Shown here in pieces: positions 11,825 to 18,026 of a stretch of DNA of 64,000 nt. The notes below the pieces were generated by a model that worked only from the letters and a program-made list of their open reading frames with translations, searched no databases and was not told the origin of the DNA. Source of the stretch: Pedobacter jeongneungensis (GTDB taxonomy: Bacteria > Bacteroidota > Bacteroidia > Sphingobacteriales > Sphingobacteriaceae); assembly GCF_000633455.1 (NCBI RefSeq), contig NZ_AYMG01000002.1, positions 1-64,000 of the forward strand, written 5' to 3'. Made by a program: the position numbers and the translations under genes. Every line of letters begins with the position of its first letter. Position 1 is the stretch's first letter.

Positions 11825-11897
11825 GATTCCGTAGCTCAGCTGGTAGAGCATTACACTTTTAATGTAGTGGTCCTGGGTTCGAATCCCAGCGGGATCA
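11825..11897 (+). tRNA. tRNA-Lys (anticodon TTT)
   Basis: A 73-nt cloverleaf. The acceptor arms GATTCCG and CGGGATC pair in seven positions with one G-T. D-arm sequence AGCTCAGCTGGTAGAGC, anticodon loop CTTTTAA, T-arm GGTTCGAATCC, discriminator A. CCA is not encoded. A terminator hairpin follows at once. The 3' end borders the inserted defence gene, so it may be an integration site. Confidence 0.96.
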
Positions 11898-11901
11898 CAA
11901 G

Positions 11902-11928: not shown

Positions 11929-12078
11929 GTTTAAGAGTATTTAAACTAAGAAGCTCTTCAAAGGTAAATCAATCAATTAAGTGTAACTTATTTCGAACTG
12001 TATGGTGCCTAATCCGGATCAAGCGGAATTCTTGGGGGGAGATAAACTCTAGGCATATATTTTTGATCATCTAAATAA

Positions 12079-12291
12079 GAAGAATTTAATATCCCTTACA
12101 CCTCTGGACGTTGCTCCGAAAGCTTTGATCTTTGCATTGAAAGATTTGGCAGAAGCATTCGTGGATCTGTTAATAAAGAAGTTTATGATAGGATTGACCT
12201 TGCAACAGACCTAAAGGAATCAATTTCACATGCTTCAACCTCATTGTACCATAAAGCCATTTTTTTAAATGCTTGCTTTTGTATACCCTGA
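12079..12291 (+). pseudogene. Open reading remnant without start codon
   Basis: Seventy sense codons follow an in-frame stop at 12076-12078 and end at TGA 12289-12291. The translation has normal composition (for example SIRGSVNKEVYDRIDLATD) but no ATG, and I do not recognise the family. It lies between tRNA-Lys and the NACHT gene and may be the tail of a gene destroyed by insertion. It could also be chance. Nothing else stands out in 11930-12350. Confidence 0.3.
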
Positions 12292-12350
12292 ATATATCCC
12301 CCAGTTTTTGGGCGATATCTGATTGATTAAAAAAAAATCCATGTTTAATC

Positions 12351-12358
12351 TATATTTG
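12351..12358 (+). promoter_or_regulatory. Candidate promoter of the NACHT-nuclease gene
   Basis: TATATTTG fits the Bacteroidota -7 box. It would start transcription near 12364, just before the ATG at 12377. It therefore rules against the more upstream TTG (12323) and ATG (12341) start codons in the same frame. Confidence 0.5.
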
Positions 12359-12376
12359 ATCTGTGAACAAAAAGAT

Positions 12377-15300
12377 ATGAAAAATATAAAAAGGGAAGCC
12401 GGAGACAAGACTAAAGGTTTTACATTGCAAAAACAACGTGCGATTTCGCTTGCGCTCGACGAACTCGAACATGTGGATAACGTCTCGGTCAATGTGGCCA
12501 TCGAATACAAGGGCGACGTATACTTGCAGAATGGTAAGAATGGTTATGTTGAGGAGGAAAAGAACTACCATAAAGACACCAAGTTCACGCTGAATTCAAA
12601 CCAAATATTGAATACCATGGTTTATTTCCTCCAGTTGTGGCTGGACAGCGAAAAAAGTGCCAGTTCCAGATTTGGCTTTTTTTCAACCAACCAGATCGGC
12701 TCAGAAGGTATCAGCGATCGTTCCAAAAAACTTGATATAACCTTCCCTAATTATTCAATCCTTGAAAAGATAGTAACCCATCAGGTTGAGCAAGACAAAC
12801 AAGATCTCGCTATCCTATCGAGTTTTATATTCGATGAGTATAAAATCCAGTATGATCCCACCAATAGCCCAACATTGAATGATTCCGAACTAATCCAATT
12901 TTTACAACAGATAAGTTGGCAATTTAACCAACCAGACGAAAAATCGTACGAGGATATACTTTTGAAAAAAATCAAATCCAGTAAATTTTATACCGATCCC
13001 CAGAACAGATTTGCCCCAAACCATATCTACGCCGAACTTATGTTGGCCTTGGAAAAAAAGCAGGATCAAGGCGACCTGCTTCAAAAATTCTTGAGCAAGG
13101 CAGATATCGAACTCGCCTTCCTCAAAGTTAGCCAGGGACGCAGAGCTCCAGAAGCAAGCAGGTATTTGTTTTTTGATGTCACAGGATTTGCAAAAAATGC
13201 GAAAATACAACTCGAAAGGTTAATCAGTTCAAAATATTATGCCAACGCAAACCATCAAAGATTGCCCAAGATGGCAAAAAGAAAAGTTGCCAGGCACAAT
13301 AGAGAGATTAAGATAGATCTAGCCAGCTTGGAGACCACTAAAATCAAACAGGTAACGCAACTAGAGGTGGTAATAAAGGAAATTGGCGAGCTGCTTGACA
13401 GCGATAAGCCAACTTTTTTATTCGGGGATATTGGTAGTGGAAAAAGCACGTTACTTGCCCAGCACTTCGTAAAACAATTAAGTGAAGAAAACATCTGTAT
13501 TTTCTTAACAGCTGGTTACCTCAAAGGAAAAATCCAAAGTGAGATCAGCACCTTCCAGAAAGAAATCGAAGAATTCGTGAACAAAGAATTAGGACTGGCG
13601 GGCAGTTATTTTGAACTTGATGGCTTATTGAACTCCGGAAAAGAAATAACGCTTGTAGTCGATGGTGTCGATGAACTATCGCGTTCTGAAATCGTGAACC
13701 TGTCCACTCACCTTCTTTCCCTCTCTGAACACCAGGTAAACATTAGAGTAGTTGCATCCGGCAGGCCATTTGAAGTCCAAAAATACATCCATTTCAACGA
13801 TTGGAACTGCCTAACAACAATCGACCTGGTTGAAGAGGACATCTTCCAAATACTGGAAAACGAAGCTCTTGCCGAAGGGCTTTCAGTGCAGGATGCTTTA
13901 ACAGATGCAAAAAGCAGGTTGGACATATTGAAGTCAAACCCTGAACTTTTCGGCAATACCACAAACCCATTGATAGCCACGCTGATCAGGGAATTTTTGA
14001 TTGCCGGACATAGTTCCTCCACATTAGGGGATATTTTATATGAGGTAATCCTTAAGAAGCTGTCCTGGACGGTAGATGACAACAAAAAAGATTTTGTAAA
14101 TTTTACCCAGTTCTACCCAAACACTTTTCAGCGTCTGCCCTTTATTTCCGAAGTAGCATGGTCAATCTTTCTATCCAAAAACAGAGCAATCACAGATGCT
14201 GGGCTACATGCTGCTATCGATAAGGTATGTGCAATTTCACTTGATGATCCCAACCGCAACTTAATTATCGATGAAGCGATCAAATTCGTCACCACAACTT
14301 TTCTGCAAAAAACAACCGGTGGTTTAACCTTCCAGTCCCACCAATTGTTCCAGATGCTAGTTGGTCACCATACCTATACCACTCTTGCCAAGGGTGAAAC
14401 AATCAACCTAGGGAGCGATTCCTATGGACAATGGAGAATTATTTCCTTCGTGTCAACTGTTGCCAGAAAAATAGGGGAAAACGCTACCGTAACCGACTAC
14501 ATGAAAAATTTTCTTTGTGAAATCTTGTCATCAGAAAGCGCTACCCCAATAGCTGCGCTTTTGCTTGCTGAATCGAGAACGGATTCGCTCAACCAGATAT
14601 TCCTGGTAAGAGTTAAACAATTGGGATTCTCACCGTTGAAATTTTGGGGCATTGATGACAAACAGGTTCCGAACGCCTTTGGTTATGTATTTTCTGCCCT
14701 CGGCAGGCCGGGGTTTGAATGGCTTTACGAGAACTACCTATCTCCCGCACATCCATCAAAATCTACTTCCGATGAACTGCCCGTAGCACTACTCTCAGCA
14801 TTTTTGCTACACAAGGGATTTGAGCTGGGCGACCAAGAAAAAAAGGAGCTCTTCGAAGTGGCAAAATACCATATGGCCGCAATGACCTTTTCGTGTCAGA
14901 CCTTTCTTCCCACAATTGCCTTAGCCATACCTGAATATTTTGATGTCAAAGTGCGGTCTATCCTAGTCGTCCAAAGTCTTAAAAAACCTACCCTTTCATC
15001 ACGGGCACAAGAAATATTAAAAAAAGAGATGACCGATGGCAATCTTTCCCATGTAATCGAAGGGCTTGAGATCGAGATAGCCAAAGATTATGGCAAGAGC
15101 GAAGCCCTAAAATTCTGGTTTACCATCACCAGTGAAACACCATCGGTTTCTTTTATTGAAAAAGCGGTTCGATTCGTTGCAGATGGCGATGAAAAATTAT
15201 TTTCCATTCTTCAACAAAGGGTTGGCAAAGAGCCATTAAAGTCCTTTCTGGTCTATTGCGTGCTGCAAAGGAACAAGTTGAGCGATGCATCTGCCATCTT

Positions 15301-17677
15301 GCTCTACCTCTACTATGAGGTCAGGGAATTTAAACTCATTGTTCCGCCAATTCTTGAAAAAACTTCTATTCTCGAATACAATACCGAGGTACGGCTAAGA
15401 ATACTTGATCATTTTTTTGCCCAAGCAGGCACTGAGGAAATTGAGTACATCATAAAGAACAGGCCTGTTCCAGAACATGACCATGGGATATCAGAACTTT
15501 ACCTGCGCTATTTTCTCAAATGCCTCGAGGTATCTTCAGCGATCTATCAGAACGAGTTTTTGACAGTTGTTAGGTTTATGGGAAAATATACGCTTTCCAG
15601 ATATCCAGAGCTCAGGGAATATTTCAACAAGATCATATCCAGGGCAGAGTATCTATCAGCGCTACGCTATGCCGTAACCAATATTGACCTTCCGTTAAGG
15701 TACAATGCCGCGTGCCTTCTACTAATTTTTGATCCAATAAACGAAACCAAAGGGGTTGAAATCGTAATACGATCGACTTTTAGCCGAGACACTGACCATT
15801 ATGAATGGTTCAGGTTTTGCTCAAAACTCAACCTTGGTAAAACGGTTTTGGACCATATCTATCGATTGCTCCCTGAGTTGATAGCGGTACCCAAAATATA
15901 TGCCCTGAAACTTTTGTTCCATAGAGGAGACCCAAGGGTTGAAGGAAAATTATTGAGTGAACTGGTCTACGGCCTTCTAGGGGAAGCCAGTTCGTTGGAT
16001 TTCAGTCATTCCCTATCCGATGATGGCGTAGAAAACATAGTACGCCAGGATCGGTTTTCAGAACTGATATATGCCGCCTTAAAAGACAGCAACTTTAACA
16101 TACGCAGGTCTGCTGCATCTGTCATTATTGACAGGTACCTTGATAAAATTAGCATCAAGGACCAGGCCAAGGCTTGGCTGCTGTATATTGACTATAGCCC
16201 AGAATTTGGACTGGACAGCTTTATAAAAAAGCATATTGAGCTACTTGAAAATACTGATTTCGTAGCCCAGCTTTATGAATACCAAAAAGAGTGCGAAGAA
16301 ATTGCCGATAAACCAAGTTTCTTGCTAATCAAGTTATATGAGGCGATAAATGATATCGAAACCTGGGAAACTTTTTTGATCACCTCAATTACTACCAGGA
16401 TGATGTTCGATGCACACCATGCCTATCTATTATATGCGATACTTGTCAAGCTATCGGCCAAGCAGCCTACCATCAGGAAAAAAATCGGTTCGGCATTCAA
16501 GGGCATGATGGAGCTTGAAACCTTCAACCAGCATCGGCGCAATGATTATATACCAATCTTTGCACTGATGGCCCATGAATTTGGCTCGCTTGAAAACAGT
16601 TCCCTAGAACGTATTTTGACTGACTTTTCAGCGGTTTCCACCGAAACTACCTGTGCGCTTTTATTTAGGCTTGGAAATATACCCCAAAACTTTCATCCGG
16701 ATATACGATATACCGGACACATCAATATTTTTTCGCAGAGAAAGGCACAGGAAAAATATTTGGAGCAGAGCGCAGTTGATAAACTATTGGTCAACGGGGA
16801 AGCAATCCCTGTTTCTCTAGGTAGAGGGGTAGAGACAAGTATATTGCTGGAGTTTTACAGTGCTACCGATTTACAGGAACTAAAAGCCCAGGGGGCGACC
16901 GCCGCATACTTCGCCTTAGTGTTAAGTACCTCAAGAAGAATGGATATCGGAGATTTTGACTATGTTGACCTTTTGGATATTGGAGGTCAAAAATACGATG
17001 ACAGGAAACAGACCGAACTTCAACGGAACATTCTGCGCAACATCATGGACCTGCAACTGGACCAGCCCAAAAAAAAAGAGGCTTTTATCAAGCGGTTGAC
17101 CGCGCATTTGCATGCCATCGAAAACTATCTGACTTTCGAATTCTTCGACATCTTATTTGAAACCACCGATAAAATACAGAGCAAGGAATTCCTGTTATTT
17201 GTTGATGTACTATGTGACAATCCGGACAGGCTAAACTTGCGGCAGTTAAATAACCTTTCGGAGCTATTTAGCTTATCCAGCGGTACTGAAAAACAGCAGA
17301 TCACCCAACATCTTAAACAAAAACTAAAATCGCTGCTGAACACAGCCCCAAGTAGGAACAGAAAAGGATTCGCGATGTTGATATGGGTTATATCTCTTTT
17401 AATCCTAAGCGTAGAGAACGAATTGACAAAAGACACGGAAGACGGAGTTCTCGTAGGCCTAAAAGCAATATTTCTACAGGATGGCGCCAAGTATGAGGAT
17501 GAGGAGGGGCAGCTGATGTTTAAAGCCCGGGACATGCTCAACTATTCGGACGGTCTAATGGAAAAAATCGAGCCCAAGATCATGAGGTCAATAATTCTGG
17601 CCGGAAGGGAAAGCAATGTGGTTGAAATCAGGTCACTTTGCCGAATATTGTCAACTTTAGCCGCAATAGAAGCGTAA
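12377..17677 (+). CDS. Giant PD-(D/E)XK nuclease-NACHT NTPase with helical repeats (Avs/STAND-like antiphage protein)
   Basis: A 1766-residue cytoplasmic protein counted from ATG 12377; the frame stays open upstream to a TTG at 12323. Residues 15-140 resemble the Cap4/DUF4297-type DNA endonuclease domain, with E43, D47, the E-x-K pair E60/K62 (VEEEKNYH) and FFSTN at 101-105. A NACHT-type STAND NTPase follows at about 325-560: Walker A GDIGSGKS (G350, K356, S357), Walker B VVDGVDEL (D429, D432, E433) and a sensor segment VVASGRP. The remaining ~1200 residues look like alpha-helical repeats, the usual ligand-sensing part. Known relatives (Avs family) bind phage proteins, oligomerise and cut DNA. 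It stands alone between tRNA-Lys and a terminator. I infer abortive-infection immunity; the domain calls are from motifs only. Confidence 0.78.
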   Translation: MKNIKREAGDKTKGFTLQKQRAISLALDELEHVDNVSVNVAIEYKGDVYLQNGKNGYVEEEKNYHKDTKFTLNSNQILNTMVYFLQLWLDSEKSASSRFGFFSTNQIGSEGISDRSKKLDITFPNYSILEKIVTHQVEQDKQDLAILSSFIFDEYKIQYDPTNSPTLNDSELIQFLQQISWQFNQPDEKSYEDILLKKIKSSKFYTDPQNRFAPNHIYAELMLALEKKQDQGDLLQKFLSKADIELAFLKVSQGRRAPEASRYLFFDVTGFAKNAKIQLERLISSKYYANANHQRLPKMAKRKVARHNREIKIDLASLETTKIKQVTQLEVVIKEIGELLDSDKPTFLFGDIGSGKSTLLAQHFVKQLSEENICIFLTAGYLKGKIQSEISTFQKEIEEFVNKELGLAGSYFELDGLLNSGKEITLVVDGVDELSRSEIVNLSTHLLSLSEHQVNIRVVASGRPFEVQKYIHFNDWNCLTTIDLVEEDIFQILENEALAEGLSVQDALTDAKSRLDILKSNPELFGNTTNPLIATLIREFLIAGHSSSTLGDILYEVILKKLSWTVDDNKKDFVNFTQFYPNTFQRLPFISEVAWSIFLSKNRAITDAGLHAAIDKVCAISLDDPNRNLIIDEAIKFVTTTFLQKTTGGLTFQSHQLFQMLVGHHTYTTLAKGETINLGSDSYGQWRIISFVSTVARKIGENATVTDYMKNFLCEILSSESATPIAALLLAESRTDSLNQIFLVRVKQLGFSPLKFWGIDDKQVPNAFGYVFSALGRPGFEWLYENYLSPAHPSKSTSDELPVALLSAFLLHKGFELGDQEKKELFEVAKYHMAAMTFSCQTFLPTIALAIPEYFDVKVRSILVVQSLKKPTLSSRAQEILKKEMTDGNLSHVIEGLEIEIAKDYGKSEALKFWFTITSETPSVSFIEKAVRFVADGDEKLFSILQQRVGKEPLKSFLVYCVLQRNKLSDASAILLYLYYEVREFKLIVPPILEKTSILEYNTEVRLRILDHFFAQAGTEEIEYIIKNRPVPEHDHGISELYLRYFLKCLEVSSAIYQNEFLTVVRFMGKYTLSRYPELREYFNKIISRAEYLSALRYAVTNIDLPLRYNAACLLLIFDPINETKGVEIVIRSTFSRDTDHYEWFRFCSKLNLGKTVLDHIYRLLPELIAVPKIYALKLLFHRGDPRVEGKLLSELVYGLLGEASSLDFSHSLSDDGVENIVRQDRFSELIYAALKDSNFNIRRSAASVIIDRYLDKISIKDQAKAWLLYIDYSPEFGLDSFIKKHIELLENTDFVAQLYEYQKECEEIADKPSFLLIKLYEAINDIETWETFLITSITTRMMFDAHHAYLLYAILVKLSAKQPTIRKKIGSAFKGMMELETFNQHRRNDYIPIFALMAHEFGSLENSSLERILTDFSAVSTETTCALLFRLGNIPQNFHPDIRYTGHINIFSQRKAQEKYLEQSAVDKLLVNGEAIPVSLGRGVETSILLEFYSATDLQELKAQGATAAYFALVLSTSRRMDIGDFDYVDLLDIGGQKYDDRKQTELQRNILRNIMDLQLDQPKKKEAFIKRLTAHLHAIENYLTFEFFDILFETTDKIQSKEFLLFVDVLCDNPDRLNLRQLNNLSELFSLSSGTEKQQITQHLKQKLKSLLNTAPSRNRKGFAMLIWVISLLILSVENELTKDTEDGVLVGLKAIFLQDGAKYEDEEGQLMFKARDMLNYSDGLMEKIEPKIMRSIILAGRESNVVEIRSLCRILSTLAAIEA

Positions 17678-18026
17678 AGGTAAATTGCACTAAGTCAATA
17701 GACACAAGACGATTCCTTATAAGCTGAGAATAGTTTCATTTGATCTAATTTATAGCAAGGAAAATAAACTTTTAAAGCAAATTTAATGAGGCTAAGGCAT
17801 TTCTCTGAACTGTTGCCGTATAACTGCACAACACATACAGCTTTGTTCACCTTATCATATTTAGATACGATCAGTAATAACCACCTTTATCAAAGCACGT
17901 TCTTAAATTCATTTCCTTATTCTTTAATATAAATAGAGACAATATTACTATTCGCATGACAGCTTTAATAATTAAGCCTAAATAGCTACTAAATGGTTAG
18001 AGTTTTGTGCAATGGGGTTCACTAGA

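Follow-up and report, generated by a model that had tools for sequence, protein, structure and literature searches.

Single gene with an N-terminal nuclease, a NACHT/STAND NTPase and a helical tail, located at 12377..17677 on the forward strand of the window (the whole stretch of DNA analysed, 64,000 nucleotides). The reading frame is single and intact, starts with ATG at 12377 and encodes 1766 amino acids (ORF analysis). TTG is also in frame at 12323, ahead of this ATG; the starts of the relatives align within a few residues of ATG 12377. Full-length relatives, 28–39% identical to the window protein over the full length, are present in six other genomes (L004, L005, L006, L007, L010 and L014), and the frame is therefore far beyond chance. 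The large gene recorded here in the initial annotation is thus confirmed as an uninterrupted frame.

The family is rare, the numbers of relatives being lower bounds because the search sets overlap and no more than 2–4 candidates were scored per genome. The source genome contains one match to the protein and is the only carrier among 145 genomes of the genus. In other genera, full-length relatives were recovered among 400 genomes of the order (L004–L007), 395 genomes of the phylum (L010) and 249 genomes of one family (L014); in the search of the class, the window itself was the sole full-length match (1/395). Full-length members are known only from the phylum of the source, the sole phylum searched in depth. 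No relative was found in genome contigs with the whole protein or the N-terminal domain as the query, or in phage records; two scans of viral contigs gave no full-length relative. Matches confined to about 50–200 positions of the NTPase region were excluded from the family and read as general P-loop kinship. L026 (G273), matched at profile positions 66–252 within an open frame of 1102 codons (ORF list), was also left out. Remnants of the two ends of the gene occur in two other genomes (L008, 1501-1695; L037, 1501-1683): the first 67 residues, with one stop, in G382, and the last 61 positions in G507. These remnants are an apparent sign of gain and loss.

The gene stands alone, as first annotated: by Pfam names, none of the ten frames around it reads as a defence gene, and those named include transporters, metabolic enzymes and a sulfatase-modifying-factor-like protein. 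A tRNA-Lys(TTT) at 11825..11898 (forward strand, ARAGORN) marks a variable site adjoining the gene. The upstream gene and tRNA-Lys are shared at 83% identity with three of the four congeners searched (G034, G066, G094), and the DNA directly 3' of the tRNA differs between the source genome and these three (stretches L089, L090, L091). The fourth, G016, gave partial matches only to the upstream gene and tRNA. G066 and G094 have common DNA again farther from the tRNA. By blastn, the similarity to G094 stops at window position 12280 and that to G034 sets in again at 17991, so that the variable piece may barely exceed the gene in length. The segment bounding the presumed insertion, 12281..17990 (no strand), has its flanks defined by two different genomes. 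Farther on in G034, the end of the tRNA recurs together with about 87 bases (L091, 5733-5833). A tRNA-derived att repeat was sought to the right of the gene within the window and not found; it is therefore the variable neighbours that point to insertion at the tRNA. The G066 DNA after tRNA-Lys includes a PDC-S50-like protein (7.4e-16). Window positions 12013-12280 are 76% identical to the G094 DNA right after tRNA-Lys and contain 2–10 stops in every frame, and may therefore be a decayed remnant or non-coding.

Residues 1-262 (12377..13162, forward strand) are a nuclease domain of the Cap4/DUF4297 superfamily, with LmuA-type first genes of Lamassu as the nearest sequences (tblastn, AlphaFold2 model with PDB comparison, tree). 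An N-terminal nuclease had been proposed initially and agrees with both the sequence kinship to LmuA/Cap4 and the model matches; its relationship to Lamassu LmuA-type proteins had not been noted. The presumed active site (12503..12562, forward strand) consists of E43, D47, E59 and K62, invariant in 12/12 nuclease domains (seven family members, five LmuA-type) and again in 7/7 rows with the window protein and six LmuA-type sequences from viral contigs. Of the motif given earlier, E43/D47/E60-x-K62, residues E43, D47 and K62 stand; E60 does not, its column being variable (glycine in the LmuA-type rows P0003 and L064), and the neighbouring E59 is invariant instead.

The whole protein gave two matches by tblastn among 72,556 plasmid records, both covering residues 1-255 at most and both in three-gene operons. 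In PADLOC the third genes of these operons are LmuB (1.8e-46, 6.5e-62), the second genes match LmuC (0.0054, 2.1e-5) and one of the two first genes is LmuA (P0003, 2.7e-20). For L009, L012 and L035 a similar gene order follows the nuclease domain, as judged from the first two genes. LmuA-LmuC-LmuB order with all three genes is present in viral contigs such as L056 (2394-6114) and L059 (7980-11701), and the gene order is also recorded for L057 and L058; L056, L057 and L058, three IMG/VR records, have identical first genes. PADLOC names two of the seven first genes scanned LmuA, P0003 and L056 (2.2e-16). P0002, L009, L012 and L059 gave no match, and L035 matched VakA only (0.0017). The remaining LmuA-type first genes are labelled by sequence kinship and by their operons (LmuB in 4/4 third genes; LmuC in 4/5 second genes, including the one at 0.0054), and L064-L067 are termed LmuA-type from kinship alone.

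The AlphaFold2 model of residues 1-270 has a pLDDT of 71.7 and a pTM of 0.73, with residues 46-68 (catalytic loop) below pLDDT 50. Six of the seven rows of its alignment are LmuA-type, so that a structural match to LmuA is partly expected; sequence kinship to LmuA is the part independent of it. The eight best Foldseek matches are chains of LmuA entries (1.7e-4 to 7.3e-3, best 9nxx LmuA at 1.7e-4, three rows at E ≤ 0.001), followed by Cap4; TM-scores of these eight rows are low (0.24–0.50), with rmsd of 7–11. In the VIA comparison LmuA chains reach Z 11.1, 11.0, 10.9 and 10.0 and unrelated rows ≤ 3.2. HerA-DUF4297 (Z 6.6), Avs3 (6.2), Cap4 (6.2) and Hachiman (6.0) belong to a group at 4.7–6.6, a range in which Z < 8 alone may mean little; the Avs3 match (8dgc) covers residues 3-253 with Z 6.2, rmsd 5.4, 163 aligned positions and 20% identity. 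The nuclease fold first proposed for residues 1-150 is thus matched by known nucleases through the model. Searching the PDB with a sequence profile built on the domain recovered no chain. The PDB entries matched carry titles of LmuA tetramers, one DNA-bound, which suggests by analogy that the active form of the LmuA-like nuclease may be tetrameric. A tree was built from 18 domains: the seven fused to NACHT lie on one side of a branch and the 11 LmuA-type domains on the other (97/97). This is consistent with one origin of the nuclease-NACHT fusion, of which the midpoint root leaves the direction unset.

The linker between nuclease and NTPase, residues 263-335 (13163..13381, forward strand), is weakly conserved (31%, region identities). 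It is followed by the NACHT/STAND NTPase, residues 336-560 (13382..14056, forward strand), with invariant Walker A GDIGSGKS (residues 350-357, 13424-13447), invariant Walker B VVDGVDEL of the form DGxDE (residues 427-434, 13655-13678) and invariant R463-P464 (13763-13768), all on the forward strand. G350, G353, G355, K356, S357, D429, G430, D432 and E433 are invariant in 7/7 aligned rows; R463-P464 and Walker A/B, second acidic residue present, are kept in 7/7 rows, the phosphoesterase-bearing relative L011 included. In Pfam the window protein has no NACHT match and every NTPase family is below cut-off, the best being AAA_22 (1.2e-4, under the curated cut-off). At E ≤ 1, NACHT (PF05729) is matched in five of seven family members (best 3.2e-8), the window protein not among them, and NPHP3_N and AAA_22 in 7/7 family members scanned. 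A single-sequence model of residues 313-766 has a pLDDT of 40.1, too low for use. The profile matches in relatives and the invariant motifs support residues 336-560 as a probable NACHT/STAND switch. Both Walker motifs lie where they had been placed initially, and the naming of the middle part as NACHT has this same support.

The helical tail, residues 561-1766 (14057..17674, forward strand), is the presumed sensor. The helix-period fraction of residues 761-1766 is 0.40, versus 0.23 ± 0.04 in 20 shuffles; profile self-comparison found no internal repeats in the tail. Of the approximately 1200 residues of helical repeats annotated at first, helical periodicity is thus retained and repeats are not. 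A weak match of the seven-member profile to a TPR protein in the PDB (E 0.89) was disregarded. Mean pairwise identity among the seven members is 51% in residues 1-130, 32% in 131-262, 45% in 336-560, 33–37% in 561-1250 and 25–29% in 1251-1766. The most divergent part, residues 1251-1766 (16127-17674, forward strand, region identities), may have changed fastest, which fits a sensor end and would equally fit relaxed constraint. No relative was found for the long tail, which suggests that the trigger may be new. Near the C-terminus, residues 1664-1682 (about 17366-17422) contain a hydrophobic stretch of about 10–15 residues with an invariant Trp at 1670, present in all eight members; candidate buried helix or membrane contact.

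One relative in a seventh genome, L011, has the same NACHT and tail with a calcineurin-type phosphoesterase replacing the nuclease. It is 26% identical to the window protein across residues 338-1437 (E 3.1e-69). Against the seven nuclease members, its identity averages 29% in NACHT and 16–25% after it. Its N-terminus is matched by Metallophos (PF00149, 1.5e-10, Pfam), and in PADLOC it is matched by PDC-S60 (5.6e-21, residues 1-447) and 'Effector, Endonuclease' (2.7e-14). Directly 3' of L011 is a patatin-like phospholipase (4.2e-19; L054, 12551-14080, forward strand).

Neighbourhoods of the seven relatives were examined in 20-kb stretches. A relaxase or integrase lies near three of them, and another NACHT/STAND-type gene is found next to two. 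L005 has a relaxase and, just upstream, a pair of SMEK-domain and NACHT proteins (L050, 13397-15439 and 15467-16183, reverse strand; SMEK 1.2e-40, NACHT 2.1e-8). L011 has a phage integrase. L014 has an integrase (PF02899 over cut-off, PF00589 just under) and is directly followed by a STAND-like protein of 1316 amino acids (L055, 12669-16619, forward strand; nSTAND_NTPase5 2.7e-5, below cut-off), whose N-terminus resembles another Cap4-type nuclease by eye. Transposase-like frames were seen by eye near L007. L004 and L010 are each near a protein of about 200 amino acids, the two being 51% identical (L049, 8158-8820, reverse strand; L053, 4682-5281, reverse strand) and without a match in Pfam or PADLOC. 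These two proteins have HLSCHG/HISCHG and FLSAC/FLSSC stretches, which we take to be like the His-Cys pair of CHAT/caspase-type proteins.

Observed for the gene and its family are the domain composition, conservation of the nuclease and NTPase residues, a relationship to LmuA, a single exchange of effector, and surroundings that are mobile or variable. An LmuA-like nuclease, an ATP switch and a fast-changing tail make phage sensing followed by cell killing through DNA cutting the most likely function. The protein is read, with a probability of roughly 0.78, as a single-gene intracellular immune receptor of the NACHT/STAND type, in which the tail senses phage, NACHT oligomerises and the LmuA-like nuclease degrades DNA. 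At rest, the NACHT switch would hold the nuclease monomeric. The variable helical tail would bind a phage protein or a phage-perturbed host protein, upon which NACHT would exchange nucleotide and oligomerise. The LmuA-like nuclease domains would then gather in an active, probably tetrameric form, and the assembled nuclease would degrade DNA and halt the infected cell. Of this scheme, the sensing role of the tail, the oligomerisation, the cutting of DNA and abortive infection are proposed by analogy with bNACHT25/32, Avs1-4 and Lamassu. bNACHT25 and bNACHT32 are described as a PD-(D/E)XK effector with NACHT, requiring active-site D48 for defence, with loss of DNA upon infection (PMC12169576); Avs1-4 nucleases as killing once terminase, portal or some other phage protein is sensed (PMC12931631); and Lamassu as having the variable effector LmuA, in many cases a Cap4 nuclease (PMC10586767).

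The same parts could serve another conflict. A STAND regulator or self/non-self factor that uses its nuclease for plasmid exclusion or for control of integrated elements would suit the mobile surroundings of 3/7 relatives, and Lamassu systems act on plasmids as well as phages (PMC10586767). Nothing plasmid-specific was found, however, and the nuclease-NACHT and nuclease-STAND proteins described in PMC12169576 and PMC12931631 sense phage proteins; such a role is unlikely. A true member of Avs1-4, too diverged for current models, is a decidedly unlikely reading. The 'Avs-type' label of the initial annotation holds as a working model, with the same order of parts and with Avs3 (8dgc, Z 6.2) matched structurally by the nuclease domain, but not as membership. 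With the window protein as the query, PADLOC gave no family at E up to 10, in a database that presumably includes Avs models, and NCBIfam gave no model at E ≤ 1. The NCBIfam Avs2 model NF041813 has no match in the whole genome, and none over cut-off in 14 control genomes either, which therefore offer no positive control. A PDB search with the seven-member profile (1773 positions), run to E 10, recovered no Avs chain, with 8dgc assumed to be in the sequence set.

That the protein is a Lamassu effector, with LmuB and LmuC partners supplied from elsewhere in the genome, is highly improbable, although the nearest proteins to its nuclease domain are of LmuA type. No LmuB or LmuC is adjacent to the gene (Pfam, ten neighbouring frames), and the C-terminal part of LmuA, after about residue 265, is absent from the window protein. 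Over the whole genome the LmuB model PDLC03859 gives three short matches (best 5.9e-8), in frames that read by eye as RecF, RecN and an ABC-transporter ATPase; the same model also gives matches in 14/14 control genomes, and these matches are therefore unspecific. Lamassu membership of the whole protein was rejected on the missing adjacent partners and the unspecific LmuB-model matches.

The immune-receptor reading applies to a family that is unnamed in the defence and domain libraries searched, its nuclease-NACHT architecture being of a known kind. The family was not found described in the literature searched, which covers the Avs and Lamassu structure papers incompletely, and the combination of DUF4297 with NACHT gave no literature match. 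Genomes carrying the family are probably under-annotated, because the nuclease-type members scanned go unnamed by the defence library (PADLOC). Lamassu, an SMC-type system, and a NACHT switch draw on one nuclease module, and the effector is swapped inside the family. It is conceivable, as a tentative proposal, that these proteins form a separate family of single-gene receptors, with a conserved NACHT, a sensor tail of a new type of about 1000 residues and exchangeable effectors, sensing a phage feature unused by the described Avs and bNACHT proteins. If so, one lineage would have as its effector a nuclease also present in Lamassu, and another a calcineurin-type phosphoesterase.

Among known systems, Lamassu LmuA shares its fold and catalytic residues with residues 1-262; in Lamassu, LmuB (SMC-like) and LmuC are separate proteins, whereas the window nuclease is fused to NACHT and tail. 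The PADLOC candidate PDC-S60 is matched by L011 over the phosphoesterase and the start of the NTPase; the window protein is unmatched and has a nuclease in the place of the phosphoesterase. Avs proteins have the order nuclease, STAND, long helical sensor. This order is common to Avs2 and Avs3 (AVAST) and the window protein, and the model is matched by the nuclease domain of Avs3 at the Z given above; by sequence, in contrast, neither the Avs models nor the solved Avs chains match the window protein. In bNACHT25 the NCH1 domain is reported, a helical domain after NACHT that is not identified in the window protein and is not among the Pfam families listed for the family, Pfam possibly lacking an NCH1 model. 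The tail of the window protein, about 1000 residues, sets it apart from bNACHT25 and bNACHT32. Compared by description (PMC12169576), bNACHT25 and bNACHT32 (clade 6) are alike in their N-terminal nuclease, central NACHT and C-terminal helical part, and their essential early aspartate, D48, has its counterpart in D47 of the window protein.
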